Shown here: one piece after another, positions 52,687 through 59,495 of the stretch
How positions within the stretch are numbered: position 1 is the stretch's first letter
Layout: every line of letters begins with the position of its first letter
Source of the DNA: an uncultured Clostridia bacterium
GTDB taxonomy: Bacteria; Bacillota; Clostridia; Christensenellales; CAG-917
DNA: 64,000 bases
NCBI GenBank assembly: GCA_944349635.1
Contig: CALVNH010000001.1
Location: forward strand, 148,385-212,384
Direction of reading: 5' to 3'
Program-made: the position numbers and the translations under genes
Notes under the pieces: model-generated
The model's input: only the letters and a program-made list of their open reading frames with translations
What the model was told of the DNA's origin: nothing
Databases searched by the model: none

Positions 52687-52840
52687 GTCGAACTTGCTAC
52701 ACTGCACACCCGGGAAAAGCGCGCTTTTCTCTGTTTTGCTCTGCCTGACCGCGCAACGGAATTTCTCAAGAAAGGAGCTCTCTCTCCCCGTTCTCGTCAT
52801 TGTCGTGCACTCCGCCGCGGGAAGCGCCTTGTTTCACGAA

Positions 52841-52873
52841 AAAAAATACGCCGTGGAAACGGCGTATTTTTTT
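52841..52873 (-). terminator. Terminator of the ligase/GlpA/AGPS-like operon
   Basis: AAAAAATACGCCGT, loop GGAA, ACGGCGTATTTTTT: 14-bp stem, T-runs on both strands. It lies about 25 bp after the stop at 52897. Confidence 0.88.
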
Positions 52874-52896
52874 CTGAAAATTTTCTCGGAAAAAGC

Positions 52897-54612
52897 TCAG
52901 AAGTTGTCGGGGTGCTTGTCGAGCGCAAGCGTGCCTCCCGCGTTGAGCAATCCTTCCGGGTCGAAATAGGCTTTCAGGGCCTTGAGCAGCTTCATCTGCT
53001 CTTCGCCTATGGAACCGGGCAGGAACGGTGCGAACAGTTTTCCTATGCCGTGGTGATGGCTGAGTGCGGCACCCGATTTCATTATTGCTTCCAGAATCGA
53101 AGAATGATACTTCTTGAATGCGTCGAGGTCCGTCGTCTTGATGACAAAGATGAAATAGAGGTTCGCCCCTTGCGGATAGCAGTGCGAAATGTGCGTCGTG
53201 CAGATGGCGTCCGGCCACTGTTTGACGGTCTTGCGGACGTCCTGATGCACCTGCGCCATATTGTCCCAGTTGACCGCGCATTCCAGCGTATCGATGATAA
53301 TGCCGTAGTCCTGAATGGTATCGCGCATATACGGGTCGGAGAATCTGCCGTGCTCCCAGGACGTGGTGACGTAACCGGTGAGCGACATTCCGTTATATTT
53401 GTGGGCGATTTTGCGGACGTTTTTGACGATGTTTTTCTGCAAACCGTCCTCGCCGTCGGCGAAACCGAGCAACAGACATCTCTGACTGGGCTTGAATCCT
53501 TTTGCGGAAAGCAAGGCATTCAGGGGGCTGTCGGCGATGCCGTACATATGCATCATCATATCGGTCTCTTCCGCGTCGGAGAGCCTGAACACGGACGGAT
53601 AGCCGAACTCACCCTGCATGACTTCCCTCATTGCCGCCATACCGTCCTCCCATGTGGGGAACATATACGAGAACTTGCGGTGTTTTGCGGATTTCTTGAA
53701 CACCTTGAGCGTGACCTCGGTGAGCACGCCGAAGGTGCCCTCGCTGCCCATCATAATCTGGTCGATGTTGGGACCGGTGGCTTTTCTGGGGGCGGAATCG
53801 GTACGGATTCTGCCCACGGGTGTGACATATTCCTGACAGAGCACGAGGTCTGCCGCGCAACCGTAATAAGTGGAGTTTTGTCCGCTGCCGCGAGTAACCA
53901 CCCAACCGCCGACGCAGCTGTATTCGAAAGACTGCGGAAAATGTCCGCAGGTCAGTCTGTGCTGAGCGCCGAAGTTTTCGGGTGCGTTGTTGAGGATTTC
54001 TTCCAGTTGCGGACCGCTGATGCCCGGCTGAACGGTGATGGTCTGGTTGATTTCGTTGAACGCGATGACTTTGTTGAAGTTCTTGCGCAAATCGAGAATC
54101 ATGTTCGGCCCTTTCATACACTCGGTACCGCGCGTCACGCTGGAACCGCCGGCATAGACATACAGATAAACTTTGTGTTTTTTGGAGAAAGCGACGAGTT
54201 TTTCGACATCTTCCGTCGTGGAAGGATAAATTACCACGTCGGGCAGGTTCTCCACTATGCCCTTTCTCAGACGCATGATGTCAATCATGGTTTTTCCGTA
54301 GCAGACCTGCAAACGGGTGAATCCGTCCACGGACACGTTGTCTTCGCCGACGATTTCCGCAAGTTCTTTGAGCTGAGCGTCGGAAAGGCGACTGGGCGTA
54401 TCGATTTGCGCCACTTCGTTGCCGACGTCTACCATCTTCTTGAAGTCGTCGTCGGTCAGGTGAAACTGCTTTTTAATCAGCTTGTATAACCCTTCTTTGG
54501 GTCTCTTGTAGGCGGCGGGGTCGCCCCATTTCATAACGGAGCGGAAACTTTTTTCAACCGGCGGCTCCGTAATCCATTCGGGTTCGAATTCTTTGTAAGG
54601 TTTGGTTGACAT
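52897..54612 (-). CDS. FAD-binding oxidase family, alkylglycerone-phosphate synthase homologue
   Basis: A 571-aa VAO/PCMH flavoprotein. The FAD domain is marked by VVIYPSTTEDVEKLVAFS and YVYAGGSSVTRGTE, followed by MIMGSEGTFGVLTEVTLKVF-like sequence. The C-terminal cap carries PYMRDTIQDY, TLECAVNWDN and the triple-histidine SHHHGIGK (about residue 517). Alkyl-DHAP synthase (AGPS), the ether-bond-forming enzyme of plasmalogen synthesis, has the same order: Y.RD with the catalytic Arg, ETS.PWDR, then SHHHGVGK. No covalent-FAD His is evident. D-lactate and glycolate oxidase relatives lack the HHH motif, so AGPS-type chemistry is favoured though untested. ATG 54610-54612 has AAGGAG six bases upstream. 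It is last in a five-gene operon. Confidence 0.83.
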   Translation of the reverse strand: MSTKPYKEFEPEWITEPPVEKSFRSVMKWGDPAAYKRPKEGLYKLIKKQFHLTDDDFKKMVDVGNEVAQIDTPSRLSDAQLKELAEIVGEDNVSVDGFTRLQVCYGKTMIDIMRLRKGIVENLPDVVIYPSTTEDVEKLVAFSKKHKVYLYVYAGGSSVTRGTECMKGPNMILDLRKNFNKVIAFNEINQTITVQPGISGPQLEEILNNAPENFGAQHRLTCGHFPQSFEYSCVGGWVVTRGSGQNSTYYGCAADLVLCQEYVTPVGRIRTDSAPRKATGPNIDQIMMGSEGTFGVLTEVTLKVFKKSAKHRKFSYMFPTWEDGMAAMREVMQGEFGYPSVFRLSDAEETDMMMHMYGIADSPLNALLSAKGFKPSQRCLLLGFADGEDGLQKNIVKNVRKIAHKYNGMSLTGYVTTSWEHGRFSDPYMRDTIQDYGIIIDTLECAVNWDNMAQVHQDVRKTVKQWPDAICTTHISHCYPQGANLYFIFVIKTTDLDAFKKYHSSILEAIMKSGAALSHHHGIGKLFAPFLPGSIGEEQMKLLKALKAYFDPEGLLNAGGTLALDKHPDNF

Positions 54613-54632
54613 AATCTTCTCCTTATTTGTAT

Positions 54633-54968
54633 TCAATAAATTGTCGCCGTGGCGATTAAGTTGACGTCAGTCCCCGCAACGGAGGACAAAACGACGTCGC
54701 CGCGACGGAGTTTTTCTGTTACCGTAACCGCGTTGACGGCTTTCATCAGTTCGCCTATCTTCGCCTTGGGTATTTCGCCGTCGGTGCGGACGGGAAGCAC
54801 AGGCATGCTGTCGAACACCGTTGCGACGGTGCTGCATACGGTGCGCATCGGGCAAGTGGTTTCCGCAAGCGCGAAAGCCTCTCCTTTCTTACAGGTATTG
54901 CCTTTCACAACGCCGTTTTCGACGGTCATTCTGCAACCTTTCGGGCATACTATGCACACAAGTTCCAT
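54633..54968 (-). CDS. DUF1667 small cysteine-rich protein
   Basis: A 111-aa protein whose N-terminus carries VCIVCPKGCRM, then GNTCKKG and TTCPMRTVC, a cysteine pattern suited to an iron-sulfur cluster or zinc. DUF1667 genes are commonly found with FAD-dependent glycerol-3-phosphate dehydrogenase genes and probably serve as the electron-transfer partner. One base separates its start from the preceding stop, and the AGPS-like gene follows after 20 bp. Confidence 0.88.
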   Translation of the reverse strand: MELVCIVCPKGCRMTVENGVVKGNTCKKGEAFALAETTCPMRTVCSTVATVFDSMPVLPVRTDGEIPKAKIGELMKAVNAVTVTEKLRRGDVVLSSVAGTDVNLIATATIY

Positions 54969-54969
54969 A

Positions 54970-56217
54970 TCAGTTCTCCTCCAACTCGACAGAAACGGCG
55001 GAATCCGTTTTCAGACCGAAAGCGGAAAAATCGATTTCCACGCGTTGCATCTCCGGCGGACGCAGAAAAGCGAATTTCTTTTTGTACATTTCCCTTCCGT
55101 CCACCGAGATTTTCAGAGTGCCCTTGTCCATATCCTTTACGGAGCGGAAGAAGAACACCACTCTGTCGCAAGGTTTTGCAAGGTCTATGCGGTGCGGCAC
55201 AAAGGACAAAAGCCCTTTCCCGCGCTCTATTCGCACACACTCCCCCGAAGATTTACGTTCAGCCGCCGCCGCGCCTGCGTCCGCCGCACATTCGGAAACG
55301 TAATCCACAAGGTCGAATACGTTGAGCGCGTTGCCCGCAGAGAACACTCCCTCCACTGACGACATATACGTCTGGTCGCAGTCGGGTCCTTTGGTGAAAG
55401 GATTTATCTTCACACCGAGGCTTTCGGCAAGTTCGTTCTCGGGAATCAATCCCACCGACAGAATGAGGGCGTCGCATTCGATTATTCTCTCCGTGCCTTT
55501 GACGGGCTTCATCTTGTCGTCCACCTGCGCTACTTCCACGGCAGTCAGTCTGTCCGCACCGAAAACCCTTGTCACGGTGTGGGAAAGGTGAAGCGGAATG
55601 TCGAAGTCGTGAAGGCACTGATGAATGTTGCGCGTAAGTCCGCTGGGCTCCGGCTTCACTTCGTAAACGCCTTCCACTTCCGCACCTTCCAGGGTGAGAC
55701 GACGCGCCATGATGAGTCCGATGTCGCCGCTGCCCAGAATCACGCATTTCTTCGCGGGCAATTTGCCCATGAGATTGACGTAATTCTGCGCCGTGCCCGC
55801 CGTGAACACGCCTGCGGGACGCGTGCCCTGAATGAGCACTTGTTTCGCCGTTCTCTCGCGGCACCCCGTGGCAAGCACGACGGCTTTCGCGCGGAATTTG
55901 CTCATACCGTCCCTACCCACGCAATCGATGTCGAACACGTTTCCGTTCCTGCGCATACGCGTCACGAACGTGAGCGTGTATGTATCGATGTCCAGCGACT
56001 TCACGGTGTCTATGTATCTTTCGGCATATTCGGGACCTGCGAGTTTTTCACCGAAGCGTATAAGCCCGAATCCGTCGTGCACACACTGTTTCAGAATGCC
56101 GCCCAACCTTGCTTCTCTTTCGAGAACGGCGACGTGCGCGCCCTTGTTGTGAGCGCTTTCGGCAGCCGCAAGCCCGGCAGGTCCGCCGCCTATGACGATG
56201 ACGTCGTATTCTTTCAT
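54970..56217 (-). CDS. FAD/NAD-dependent oxidoreductase (pyridine nucleotide-disulfide type)
   Basis: A 415-aa flavoenzyme with two dinucleotide folds: FAD (YDVIVIGGGPAGLAAAESA, residues about 4-22) and NAD(P) (CVILGSGDIGLIMARRL, about 155-171). It also has the ATG box VVLATGCRERTA. A second conserved FAD segment, SSVEGVFSAGNALNV, is present, and the C-terminal 100 residues form a beta domain. Such proteins sit beside GlpA and DUF1667 in clostridia and Thermotogae and are thought to pass electrons between G3P oxidation and NAD. ATG 56215-56217 overlaps the previous stop as ATGA. Confidence 0.88.
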   Translation of the reverse strand: MKEYDVIVIGGGPAGLAAAESAHNKGAHVAVLEREARLGGILKQCVHDGFGLIRFGEKLAGPEYAERYIDTVKSLDIDTYTLTFVTRMRRNGNVFDIDCVGRDGMSKFRAKAVVLATGCRERTAKQVLIQGTRPAGVFTAGTAQNYVNLMGKLPAKKCVILGSGDIGLIMARRLTLEGAEVEGVYEVKPEPSGLTRNIHQCLHDFDIPLHLSHTVTRVFGADRLTAVEVAQVDDKMKPVKGTERIIECDALILSVGLIPENELAESLGVKINPFTKGPDCDQTYMSSVEGVFSAGNALNVFDLVDYVSECAADAGAAAAERKSSGECVRIERGKGLLSFVPHRIDLAKPCDRVVFFFRSVKDMDKGTLKISVDGREMYKKKFAFLRPPEMQRVEIDFSAFGLKTDSAVSVELEEN

Positions 56218-57953
56218 TTGACACCGCCCTCCCCGTTGTTTTTGGTATTGCCGAAGAGAATGTAACTCCCTTCGTCGCCTTTGAGCACCTGTTCGGGTGC
56301 GATTCCCTCGTGTTCGGCGATGATTTTCACGACCAGCGGAGAACAGAATCCGCCCTGACATCTGCCCATACCCGGACGCACGCGACGTTTGATTCCGTCC
56401 ACGGTGCACACCTTGAGAGGCGACTCCAGCGCGTCGATTATCTCGCCTTTGCTCACTTCCTCGCAACGGCAGACGATTTCGCCGTAATCGGGGTTGGAAG
56501 CAATGTACCGCGCCCTGGTTTCGTCGTCGGCGTCCGCAAGCCGCGGAGTGTGCTTCCTGTAAGGATTGAAGTCCGCTTTGTCCGTCGCGCCCAGCATATC
56601 CTTTACCCAATCACGGATATCGCAGGCAATGGCGGGTGCCGCGGTAATGCCGGGGGACTGAATGCCCGCCGCCTCTATTATGTTCTTCGTGAAGATTCCG
56701 CGACGGACAACGAAGTCCTCTTCGTACGTCGCCGCCCTGACGCCGGAAAAATATGTGATGATGTCCGCAGTTGAGAGCTCTTCCGCCGCAACTTTCTGTT
56801 TTTTGATGATGGCGAGTATGTCTTCCAGATTGGTCGTGGTGTCCTCTCTGTACGGCTGCTCTATTGCGTTTGGACCGACAAGCACGTTGCCGTCCACTGT
56901 GCGCATTACGCCGCCGCCCTTGGTATGCCCCACCGCCGCGTTGTTGTCTTCGCGCGCACTTGCGGGCAATGGAGCGAAATAGCTCCTCGCAAAGGACGAC
57001 AGCGCATAATACGCCTTTTTCTTGTCCAGAATGAGGTCCGTCCCTTTACGGGGGTGAATGGTGAAGGTTCTGTCGCCCGCCATATCCGCTATAATGTCGC
57101 TGAAAGCGCCCGCGGCGTTGACCACGATTTTGGGATAAACCGTGCCGCGGTTGGTTCTGACGGCCTTGATGACGCCGTTTTCCACGTCCATACCCTCCAC
57201 CATGGTGTTGAGGGAAATGCGCGCGCCGTTTTCCACGGCGTTGTCGGCAAGAGCTATGGTAACCTTATAAGGAGAAACCACTCCGCCCGTCGCCATATAC
57301 ACGGCACCCGTAAGCCAGGACGGGGGCGTGGGTTCCAGTTTTTTCATTTCCTCGGGCGTAACGAAGCGCATACGCGGAATGCCCAGCAATCTGCCTTTGA
57401 GCAACATGAGCGGCGCGATTATACGTCTTTCCCACACGGTGCTGAACATGAACGTCTGCGCCCAGCGTTTGAGGTCGCACCCCAACTCCTCGGCAAGCTG
57501 CGTGTAATACTCGTTGCCGCGAAGCACGTAATGCAGTTTCTGCTGACCCTTGTGCAAATCGATGCCGACGTGAATGCAACCGTCGTTTCTGGACGAGGCG
57601 CCCGTGGCGACGTCGTTGGCTTTTTCGACGAGAAGCACGTCGACGTTCAGTTTGCTGAGTTCCCTCGCCGCCGCACAACCCATGATTCCGCCGCCTATGA
57701 CCAGCACGTCGGGAGTGGCGCCGTCGATTGCGCCGTCGCGCAAAGACGGAGCCTTGACCTTTTCGCAAAAGCCTTTGAGCCTGATGTCGTTGAGCACGCC
57801 CAGAGAGCCCTTGTCGACTGCCGCAACTCCGCAACGGTAGACGACGTCCCAGCTGTCCGCCTCGCCCGTCAGGCGCACGCAACCGCGGTACTCCTCGACT
57901 TTCGCGGAGGGCAGAATCTTATGAACTCTCTTTGCAACAGCTTTCAAATTCAT
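56214..57953 (-). CDS. GlpA-like FAD-dependent glycerol-3-phosphate dehydrogenase with N-terminal BON-like and C-terminal [2Fe-2S] domains
   Basis: A 579-aa enzyme. Residues 1 to about 65 look like a BON-type domain (VEEYRGCVRLTGEADSWD), which ordinary GlpA lacks. The dehydrogenase domain starts at DVLVIGGGIMGCAAARELS (about residue 82) with family marks ATGASSRNDGCIHVG and NAAGAFSDIIADMAG. The C-terminal part has CRCEEVSKGEI and GRCQGGFC, the bfd-like [2Fe-2S] cysteines. It would interconvert glycerol 3-phosphate and DHAP. No glpK, glpF or glpP is nearby, so the gene does not look like part of glycerol catabolism. GAGGT lies before the ATG; the 5' end overlaps the ligase gene by 35 bp. Confidence 0.87.
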   Translation of the reverse strand: MNLKAVAKRVHKILPSAKVEEYRGCVRLTGEADSWDVVYRCGVAAVDKGSLGVLNDIRLKGFCEKVKAPSLRDGAIDGATPDVLVIGGGIMGCAAARELSKLNVDVLLVEKANDVATGASSRNDGCIHVGIDLHKGQQKLHYVLRGNEYYTQLAEELGCDLKRWAQTFMFSTVWERRIIAPLMLLKGRLLGIPRMRFVTPEEMKKLEPTPPSWLTGAVYMATGGVVSPYKVTIALADNAVENGARISLNTMVEGMDVENGVIKAVRTNRGTVYPKIVVNAAGAFSDIIADMAGDRTFTIHPRKGTDLILDKKKAYYALSSFARSYFAPLPASAREDNNAAVGHTKGGGVMRTVDGNVLVGPNAIEQPYREDTTTNLEDILAIIKKQKVAAEELSTADIITYFSGVRAATYEEDFVVRRGIFTKNIIEAAGIQSPGITAAPAIACDIRDWVKDMLGATDKADFNPYRKHTPRLADADDETRARYIASNPDYGEIVCRCEEVSKGEIIDALESPLKVCTVDGIKRRVRPGMGRCQGGFCSPLVVKIIAEHEGIAPEQVLKGDEGSYILFGNTKNNGEGGVK

Positions 57954-59457
57954 TGCTTAACCTCACATAATCCATTTTGCCGATATTTGTACGCGGCAGC
58001 TCGTTCAGGCATATCACGAAACGGGGTTCGTGCCACCTCGAAAGCTTGTCCACGATACGCTCTTTCAGGGCTTTGATTTGCGCATCAGGCAATTTACCCT
58101 CTATAAAAAGCGCGATAAACGGTTTTTCCTGCACTTTGACTTCGATTGCGGCACACACTTCCGCAAAACCTTCCTCCGTTGTGACGCGCTCTATTTCCGA
58201 CGGAAACACGTTCATCCCGGAAATTTTGATGAGTCTCTTTTTCCTGCCCGCGAAATACAACACGCCGTCCTCGGAAGCTTTGAAATAGTCTCCCGTTTTC
58301 AGCCACTTTTCTCCGTCGATTTCCGTGAAGGCGTCCTGCGTGGCTTTGTCGTCGCCGAGATATCCCGTCATCATCTGGTTGCCCGCAAGCAGAAGTTCTC
58401 CCACCTCTCCGGGAGCGGCTTCGCTGCCGTCGTCGAGAACTATCCTGCATTTCATGTTGAGCAAAGGCTTGCCCACCGCCGCACCGCCGACCTTGCGCGG
58501 AGAAAGCACGCACACGCTGCCCGTCTCCGTCAACCCGTACCCGGGAGACATGACACACGACGAACCCGCCTCTTTCATGCGTTTGTCGAACCGCTTCTCC
58601 AACTCCGCGTCCACGGCGTCGCCGCCGACGTACACGTTTTCCAGACACGATACGTTTTTGCCTTCGAAACCTTTGGTGTTCAGCAGTTTGTTTATCATTC
58701 TCGGCACGGCAATCACGGTTGTGATTCTGTGGCGGGCAATCGCCTTCACCACCCTTTCCGCCTTGAACACGGGCATTATCACGGGCGGCATATCCGTGCA
58801 TATCGAGGAGTGCAACCCCACCAGAAGCCCGAAGCCGTGAAACATGGGCATGACGACCAACATTCTGTCCTTCTGCCCGAAGTTGTTTTCTGAGAGGGTT
58901 TCCAGAAGATTCTTGGTGAGCGCGTTGACGGCCGCCGCCGAAAGCACCACCGTTTTGGGCACTCCCGAAGTCCCGCCGGAGCGCATATACACGGCAGGCT
59001 CCGAACCGTCGCCCGAAAACGCGGAAAACTTTCTTCCGCGTGGCAATCCGATGTAACCGTAAGCACCGAAAGGACACACGATTTTGCGCACGCCTTTCAG
59101 CCCCTTGCCGAGTTTTGCGAAATTCACGTCGGAGAGAAAAACTGCTTTCGGCTTCTGTTCCTCCACGGCTTGCAAAAATTCGCCTCTCTCCATAAGAGGG
59201 TGAATCATAGAGGCGACGGCGCCTATCCTCGACACCGCGTAAAACGCAACTATACCCTGCTCAATCGTAGGCAACGCTATCATCACGACATCGCCCTTGT
59301 TTATTCCGAGAGCGGCAAGTCCCGCCGCAACGCGGTCTGTTTCCTTGAAAAAACGGGGATACGAAAACTTCTTTGCGCCGCGTATAAACGCCACTCCGCT
59401 CTTGTCGGGGCGATACGCGCGCATAAAATCGAAAATCGTGTTTTTCTCCGTTATCAT
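57919..59457 (-). CDS. AMP-dependent acyl ligase (ANL family)
   Basis: A 512-aa acyl-activating enzyme. The A3 loop reads RSGGTSGVPKTVVLS (TSG-x-PK kept). Next come PGYGLTETGSVCVLS (A5), the A7-A8 segment WLKTGDYFKASEDGVLYFAG then RKKRLIKISGMNVFPSEIE, and PRTNIGKMDYVRL with the A10 lysine. It resembles long-chain or aryl acid ligases and O-succinylbenzoate-ligase-like proteins; the acid is unknown. As first gene of the operon it may supply acyl-AMP or acyl-CoA to the downstream lipid-like enzymes. ATG 59455-59457 starts only about nine bases after a TATAAT box, with no ribosome site, so the mRNA may be leaderless. Confidence 0.85.
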   Translation of the reverse strand: MITEKNTIFDFMRAYRPDKSGVAFIRGAKKFSYPRFFKETDRVAAGLAALGINKGDVVMIALPTIEQGIVAFYAVSRIGAVASMIHPLMERGEFLQAVEEQKPKAVFLSDVNFAKLGKGLKGVRKIVCPFGAYGYIGLPRGRKFSAFSGDGSEPAVYMRSGGTSGVPKTVVLSAAAVNALTKNLLETLSENNFGQKDRMLVVMPMFHGFGLLVGLHSSICTDMPPVIMPVFKAERVVKAIARHRITTVIAVPRMINKLLNTKGFEGKNVSCLENVYVGGDAVDAELEKRFDKRMKEAGSSCVMSPGYGLTETGSVCVLSPRKVGGAAVGKPLLNMKCRIVLDDGSEAAPGEVGELLLAGNQMMTGYLGDDKATQDAFTEIDGEKWLKTGDYFKASEDGVLYFAGRKKRLIKISGMNVFPSEIERVTTEEGFAEVCAAIEVKVQEKPFIALFIEGKLPDAQIKALKERIVDKLSRWHEPRFVICLNELPRTNIGKMDYVRLSNEFESCCKESS

Positions 59458-59465
59458 ACGTATCA

Positions 59466-59495
59466 ATTATAATTCGCGCGCGCAATGCCAGTCAA
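59466..59495 (-). promoter_or_regulatory. Promoter of the ligase/GlpA/AGPS-like operon
   Basis: On the minus strand TTGACT (59490-59495), 18 bp, perfect TATAAT (59466-59471). Transcription would begin at about 59459, next to the ATG at 59457. The spacer is a GCGCGCGC-rich block. Confidence 0.68.

Follow-up and report, generated by a model that had tools for sequence, protein, structure and literature searches.

A 64,000-nucleotide stretch of DNA from an uncultured Clostridia bacterium (hereafter the window; C1:148385-212384 of genome G000, an assembly of 1.35 Mb that is 89% complete) raises the question of what is served by five consecutive genes at 52897-59457, all on the minus strand and all with open frames, which encode an AMP-forming ligase, a GlpA-like dehydrogenase, a FAD/NAD oxidoreductase, a DUF1667 protein and a homologue of alkylglycerone-phosphate synthase (AGPS). 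A preliminary description, made from the sequence alone, had given these genes in this order and taken them for a candidate ether-lipid operon. The order and the Pfam families were confirmed, and the theme of the set is probably ether glycerolipids, as proposed there, rather than glycerol use. Our tentative reading, which we regard as possible, is that the genes form a module for ether glycerolipids, built around an AGPS-type exchange and paralogous to the glycerol operon, with salvage or cleavage as the favoured direction. Among the loci fetched, the closest named relative is Candidatus Limadaptatus stercoravium (L026; 87% over AGPS), placed by NCBI in the class Clostridia.

The last gene of the set is predicted, from sequence comparison and a structural model, to encode an AGPS-type protein and not a lactate or glycolate dehydrogenase. 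In phmmer searches against the PDB, its product scored 222 bits with Dictyostelium AGPS and 214 bits with guinea-pig AGPS, and the next family, glycolate oxidase, reached 76 bits. It is 32.1% identical to the guinea-pig enzyme over 452 residues; the Dictyostelium and guinea-pig enzymes are 33.2% identical to each other. A Foldseek search with its AlphaFold2 model (pLDDT 84.9) returned mammalian AGPS as the best match (E 4.9e-36, TM 0.78), compared with E 1.3e-24 for lactate dehydrogenase. Two of the signatures first quoted for this protein were found as YMRD (428) and SHHHGIGK (518), and the third is represented by ECAVNWD, which replaces ETSAPWD. The best NCBIfam model was glcD, at 124 bits and under its cut-off of 568, and no AGPS model came up.

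We compared 14 positions of guinea-pig AGPS across 85 operon rows (83 distinct). His300, Ser304, Arg419, Arg515, Tyr578 and His615-617 (guinea-pig numbers) are identical in all 85, so the catalytic arginine, tyrosine and histidine residues are all retained; R419H and Y578F occur among the AGPS mutants in the PDB. Arg419, Tyr578 and His615-617 are not exclusive to the operon proteins, since they are also present in relatives of E. coli YgcU (ygcU-type proteins) and in four other plasmid-encoded proteins. Arg515, picked as a separating residue after the pocket alignment had been seen, occurs in 85/85 operon rows, 2/2 actinobacterial proteins, 1/4 other plasmid proteins and 0/5 ygcU-type proteins.

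Two trees, both with long-branch warnings and few GlcD-side rows, grouped the operon proteins with those of eukaryotes and with the other AGPS-like proteins, split from four GlcD-side rows in the first (support 100/99) and from two in the second (support 100/100). The operon proteins formed their own clade (100/100), relative to which the placing of the eukaryotic sequences is not fixed. The protein thus falls with AGPS and away from the GlcD side, and a D-lactate or glycolate dehydrogenase identity was ruled out by the phmmer scores, pocket residues, trees and Foldseek matches. The likeness to mammalian and Dictyostelium AGPS (EC 2.5.1.26) covers the fold, Arg419, Arg515, Tyr578, His300 and His615-617, at 29-32% identity over 507 and 452 residues. 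The difference lies in the setting, which here is an operon with GlpA-like, oxidoreductase, DUF1667 and FGGY kinase genes, and in the carriers, where no GNPAT relative was found.

Relatives of this protein scoring above 600 bits were detected in 18 of 60 kin genomes, among them all ten of the window's genus (21 of 60 at a looser threshold), and in 2 of 119 genomes drawn across the phylum, one of them the window's own. A species collection yielded at least 578 confirmed AGPS-relative stretches, and 80 loci, some of which end at contig edges, were kept for linkage counts. The carrier loci span Clostridia, spirochaetes and Thermotogota. AGPS was linked to the GlpA-like gene in 73 of the 80 loci, to the oxidoreductase in 78 and to DUF1667 in 76. 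Since the set recurs in dozens of loci, the gene association is beyond chance. Conservation of all five genes, however, held only in part: these four stand together in 71 of 80 loci, whereas the ligase is present in eight. A TetR-like gene lies near 28 of the 80, in 23 cases upstream on the opposite strand (two examples were checked with Pfam).

The ligase, first described as a member of the set, is therefore outside the operon core. It is located upstream in three of its eight loci and downstream in five, and the downstream five are only 28-30% identical to the window ligase. In the window's family, L107, L108 and L114 carry the ligase, GlpA, oxidoreductase, DUF1667, kinase and AGPS genes in one run, and a ligase accompanies the operon in genomes G034, G014 and G015. 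The best NCBIfam model for the window ligase is a long-chain-fatty-acid-CoA-ligase subfamily (236 bits against a cut-off of 476) and in the PDB it most resembles 4-coumarate-CoA ligase; the protein would activate a fatty acid. As a side observation, the five loci with an AMP ligase downstream of AGPS (L033, L036, L039, L045 and L074) come from metagenome-assembled genomes named Lapin; in one of them a HAD-type hydrolase (L036:9793-10431) lies between the two genes, and the hydrolase cluster spans five loci of the collection.

Three genes of the set have homologues, in the same order, in the Firmicutes glycerol operon glpK-glpA-oxidoreductase-DUF1667, represented here by L138 and L139. The latter differs in its true GlpK, in a GlpA that lacks the N-terminal domain and falls on another branch, and in having no AGPS in the stretches read. 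The operon GlpA appears to be a class of its own. At least 81 residues precede the FAD domain in 73/73 operon rows, against 2-18 in five canonical GlpA proteins, and the motif (T/S)KGG(G/A), preceded by an insert of variable length, is found in 73/73 operon rows, compared with GKG in 5/5 canonical ones. Every NCBIfam glycerol-3-phosphate model scores under its cut-off with the GlpA-like protein, and the operon proteins occupy a tree branch separate from canonical GlpA. In an alignment to 4x9m, His128, Lys345, Arg406 and Ser433, which we take to be active-site residues of glycerophosphate oxidase/dehydrogenase (GlpO/GlpA), are kept in all 73 operon and all five canonical sequences. The N-terminal ~60 residues (about 3-59) are modelled with pLDDT > 95 as alpha-beta-beta-alpha-beta, presumably the order of a BON domain; sub-threshold BON matches in Pfam were seen in two of the three proteins tested (E 0.08 for the window protein and 0.06 for L040), and none in L041, from Eubacterium callanderi. 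The label BON-like is used provisionally, on the basis of this modelled order and these matches. In one relative, represented by L029:2976-4830 and L109:3976-5830, the GlpA-like gene is in two frames, through either a true break or an assembly error.

If the set served ordinary glycerol use, its GlpA-like, GlpB-position and DUF1667 proteins would oxidise glycerol-3-phosphate, and the FAD oxidase would be an accessory or a misnamed dehydrogenase. The retained glycerophosphate-oxidase residues would suit this explanation, as would the window genome, whose best GlpK score is 163 bits against a cut-off of 590. We nevertheless consider it very unlikely, because that genome also encodes, on a different contig (L135), a second GlpA-type protein, of the canonical kind, together with an oxidoreductase and DUF1667, because a true GlpK scores above cut-off in 11 of 19 carriers, and because the operon kinase, discussed below, forms a separate branch. 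Moreover, deletion of the comparable Pseudomonas aeruginosa operon PA3026-PA3024 left growth unchanged, both with glycerol and across the BIOLOG plates used, although its authors allow redundancy (PMC8151288). A second DUF1667 gene was found in 16 of the 19 carriers. Six second sets were fetched (L135-L140): GlpK, GlpA, oxidoreductase and DUF1667 are joined in L138 and L139; GlpA, oxidoreductase and DUF1667 occur without an adjoining GlpK in L135, L136 and L140; and no GlpA was seen in the fetched part of L137. By sequence relationship, the window set is a paralogue of the glycerol operon.

The absence of a glycerol kinase had been part of the argument of the preliminary description. None is present at the window locus, but the system does include an FGGY kinase, which is encoded on the same strand near AGPS in 60 of the 80 loci (48 upstream, 12 downstream), and in nine of the ten genomes of the window's genus it is found outside the operon, elsewhere in the genome, the exception being an assembly that is 79% complete. 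The window genome encodes it at C1:374802-376322, about 167 kb from the operon, and this kinase groups with the operon kinases. As judged from profile scores and phylogeny, the operon kinase is not GlpK. Four scanned operon kinases reached 129-157 bits with the GlpK model (cut-off 590); their best model was xylulokinase, under its cut-off, and they were under every curated FGGY cut-off. In the tree they form a branch separate from GlpK. At the Arg-Glu site of GlpK, the aligned operon kinases have Arg in 64/64 and Asp in 62/64.

AGPS exchanges the acyl group of acyl-dihydroxyacetone phosphate (acyl-DHAP) for a fatty alcohol (PMC9471318). Its substrate needs a ketone at C2 and a phosphate at C3, so a kinase and a glycerol-3-phosphate-type dehydrogenase fit an alkylglycerol as the starting compound; their eukaryotic equivalents are alkylglycerol kinase (EC 2.7.1.93) and alkyl-glycerone-phosphate reductase (EC 1.1.1.101) (PMC7911779). 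In the sequence of steps that we infer, an alkylglycerol would be taken up, phosphorylated and oxidised before an ether/ester exchange. The divergent FGGY kinase would phosphorylate 1-O-alkylglycerol. The GlpA-like protein, a proposed alkyl-glycerol-3-phosphate dehydrogenase/alkyl-DHAP reductase, would act in a complex with the oxidoreductase as electron-transfer partner and DUF1667 as iron-sulphur partner, and would interconvert 1-O-alkyl-glycerol-3-phosphate and 1-O-alkyl-DHAP. The AGPS-type protein would then swap the alkoxy group for a fatty acid (alkyl-DHAP + fatty acid <-> acyl-DHAP + fatty alcohol). Since the dehydrogenase might work in both directions, salvage into membrane ether lipids is covered by this reading. 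That anaerobes actually cleave or recycle glyceryl ethers by an O2-free route, in which the kinase and dehydrogenase make alkyl-DHAP, a reversed AGPS frees the fatty alcohol and the backbone re-enters metabolism, is possible but doubtful; in this direction the set would be the oxygen-free counterpart of alkylglycerol monooxygenase (AGMO).

The same proteins could be arranged to make ether lipids de novo, in the manner of peroxisomes, with acyl-DHAP and a fatty alcohol giving alkyl-DHAP, the GlpA-like protein as the reductase and the ligase supplying acyl-CoA. An AGPS-type protein with conserved catalytic residues would be expected in such a pathway, and eukaryotes pair AGPS with the reductase and the kinase named above (PMC7911779). 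In Myxococcus, the AGPS homologue MXAN_1676, about 42% identical to human AGPS, plays a minor role in alkyl-ether formation (PMC9131029). The MXAN_1676-1674 operon is like the window set in its AGPS homologue and differs in its partners, a FAR1/GNPAT-like protein and a NAD-dependent epimerase-type protein, and in its aerobic synthesis. De novo synthesis would, however, start from DHAP without the kinase and dehydrogenase and would need a DHAP acyltransferase, and a GPAT_C (GNPAT/PlsB) relative was found in 0/23 carriers, with a positive E. coli control and with other acyltransferase families not searched. We therefore favour salvage or cleavage, as an inference, and regard de novo synthesis as unlikely. 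Ether formation from a fatty acid and DHAP, as first proposed for the locus, would leave the kinase superfluous. DHAP and long-chain alcohols have, moreover, been excluded as plasmalogen precursors in the anaerobes studied (PMC9702350).

A further point against de novo synthesis comes from the PlsA/PlsR route, which shares with the window set the theme of ether lipids in anaerobes but whose enzymes are unrelated to those of the operon. To our knowledge, PlsA is the only established ether-lipid route in strict anaerobes. PF09989, which we take to be the marker of PlsA, matched in 13 of 20 carriers; 11 of these matches lie in frames > 900 aa, and the two remaining frames, of ~330 aa, may not be PlsA. 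It was found in 0/36 genomes of the window's family, in line with the earlier statement that the set is not built on known plasmalogen genes, and showed no significant association with the operon across 60 relatives (p 0.26). The notion that the operon is an alternative to PlsA, or replaces it, was discarded because the two coexist in those 13 carriers. PF07993 (fatty-acyl-CoA reductase) was present in 20/20 carriers and 14/14 controls alike and does not discriminate. PlsY (PF02660) was found in 0/10 genomes of the genus, but of the 21 family members that have no operon, 20 lack it as well (p 0.56 within the family). Its absence is thus uninformative on the operon, and the idea of a bypass of missing PlsY, which would have spoken for synthesis, was dropped. 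In the family as a whole, PlsY is present in just 3 of 36 genomes; with no GPAT_C relative in the 23 carriers, this raises the question of how glycerolipid synthesis begins in these bacteria.

Breakdown of a small non-lipid compound, either glycerol-like or an ether, in which a kinase and a dehydrogenase would act before the AGPS-type protein splits or oxidises the phosphorylated ketone, would make the set a variant of ygcE-ygcW-ygcU of E. coli. In E. coli (ygcE, ygcW, ygcU), Enterococcus and Priestia, an FGGY kinase and a short-chain dehydrogenase/reductase (SDR) are encoded with a ygcU-type protein, with transporter genes nearby. These sets are like the window set in combining an FGGY kinase, a dehydrogenase and an AGPS-like flavoprotein. 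Their resemblance to small-molecule catabolism keeps this explanation alive, as do the xylulokinase model as the best, if sub-cut-off, match of the four scanned kinases and glcD as the best, likewise sub-cut-off, model of the AGPS-like protein. We still find it rather unlikely. The ygcU-type proteins lack the Arg515 common to the window clade and eukaryotic AGPS and belong to another clade (100/100); their dehydrogenase is of the SDR type; and the actinobacterial and Pseudomonas sets contain lipid kinases. Of the E. coli, Enterococcus and Priestia sets, two have electron transfer flavoprotein (Etf) genes, and two have a major facilitator superfamily gene, with an ATP-binding cassette transporter gene near the third. 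The ygcU-type class comprises L115:962-9526, L116:2674-9401, L142:7031-12610, L143:5222-9011 and L145:2637-11092, with Etf genes in L115, L116, L142 and L145 and an SDR plus an FGGY kinase in L142, L143 and L145. The E. coli and Enterococcus regions also have a glycerol-3-phosphate responsive antiterminator gene within about 7 kb.

A published parallel to the proposed ether-glycerolipid module is PA3026-PA3024 of Pseudomonas aeruginosa, whose FAD protein has been suggested to carry out the AGPS step and whose other products are a GlpD homologue and an FGGY kinase; the operon is raised by GliR overproduction together with the lipid kinase PA3023 and the phospholipase C PA3464 (PMC8151288). Compared by its published description, it resembles the window set in having the AGPS-step FAD protein, a glycerol-3-phosphate dehydrogenase and an FGGY kinase in one operon, and differs in its GlpD-type dehydrogenase, its AraC regulator and the co-induced lipid kinase and phospholipase C; DUF1667 is not mentioned in the passages compared. 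This analogue and the myxobacterial AGPS were already published. Plasmids of Tsukamurella and Streptomyces carry an AGPS-type gene with all eight residues kept, beside genes for a glycerol-3-phosphate dehydrogenase, a TetR protein and a diacylglycerol/YegS lipid kinase. A total of 85 plasmid records had an AGPS-like match, nine of which, hand-picked and not random, were examined along with one E. coli chromosome. Two of the nine have a glycerol-3-phosphate dehydrogenase and a lipid kinase, two a kinase and an SDR, four neither a kinase nor a glycerol-type dehydrogenase, and one is unannotated. Two plasmids, of Aminobacter and Pseudorhizobium (L148:552-10708 and L149:1-11416), carry near-alike clusters of AGPS-like, glutathione transferase, adenylate-forming ligase, aldehyde dehydrogenase and GMC oxidoreductase genes, which we take to resemble polyether degradation sets.

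Several observations weigh against an ether-glycerolipid module working in the salvage or cleavage direction. The known role of AGPS is in biosynthesis, and its reversal in vivo is an assumption of our scheme. Six of the 14 compared AGPS positions (309, 367, 469, 471, 511 and 568) are not retained across the operon set, 367 being kept in 69/85 rows and the others unlike guinea pig in most or all; Dictyostelium AGPS also departs from guinea pig at 469, 511 and 568. An Etf-linked AGPS-like protein, at 32.5% identity, is just as similar to the window protein as guinea-pig AGPS is, and its own best PDB match is likewise AGPS (164 bits). Since ygcU-type pockets keep seven of the eight residues, all but Arg515, beside SDR, Etf or transporter genes, such a pocket is no proof of a lipid substrate. 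Among the 18 loci outside the genus without a same-strand kinase, 11 carriers were tested: four have a kinase (in L079 as a divergent neighbour), and seven gave no kinase match at E <= 1e-60. L085 has the kinase and AGPS without GlpA nearby. The open-licence literature yielded no activity, lipid or growth data on this operon and no title on it in Clostridia. Finally, for the Pseudomonas operon its authors put forward the reverse route, from glycerol to alkylglycerone phosphate, which is the direction of de novo synthesis, and leave the function open; they report carriers outside Pseudomonas without glpD and glpK, which is also compatible with plain glycerol use (PMC8151288).

Ether lipids from the host, the diet and microbes reach the gut. 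If our reading is correct, gut and environmental anaerobes would gain an O2-free route to use or recycle them, DUF1667 and an uncharacterised FGGY kinase would receive a role, and PA3026-PA3024 of Pseudomonas would become testable with one substrate class; if the set runs in the forward direction, strict anaerobes would join the organisms that make ether lipids through AGPS. According to a 2021 review, the oxygen-dependent AGMO was the sole known alkylglycerol-degrading enzyme (PMC7911779).

Table 1. Genes and candidate transcription signals of the five-gene set, in window coordinates
Feature	Position	Strand	Family or basis
AMP-forming acyl ligase, 512 aa	57919..59457	-	PF00501
GlpA-like FAD dehydrogenase with N-terminal BON-like and C-terminal BFD [2Fe-2S] domain	56214..57953	-	PF01266 + PF04324
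FAD/NAD(P) pyridine-nucleotide oxidoreductase, GlpB position	54970..56217	-	PF07992 (best of 14)
DUF1667 protein, 111 aa, N-terminal CxxCxxxC and a later Cys	54633..54968	-	PF07892
AGPS-type flavoprotein, 571 aa	52897..54612	-	PF01565 + PF02913
Promoter-like TTGACT-18-TATAAT, 11/12 match	59466..59495	-	consensus scan only
Terminator-like hairpin, 16 pairs, A and T runs on either side	52839..52874	-	fold of -20.4 kcal/mol over 63 bases

Transcription from one promoter to one terminator, as first described, found support at its downstream end and less so at its start, where the promoter assignment is weak. The consensus scan found 13 sites against 3.7 expected, and the -10 element of the site at 59495-59466 ends merely 8 bases ahead of the ligase ATG (59457), which would imply either a leaderless start or use of a second promoter-like site upstream, at 59575-59548. 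The ligase and GlpA-like genes overlap by 35 bases and the GlpA-like and oxidoreductase genes by 4, and gaps of 1 and 20 bases separate the oxidoreductase from DUF1667 and DUF1667 from the AGPS-like gene. Together with the terminal hairpin, this spacing is consistent with a single transcript. The hairpin (52874-52839), which is absent from the terminator scan list and came from a separate fold, could act as a terminator for both strands.

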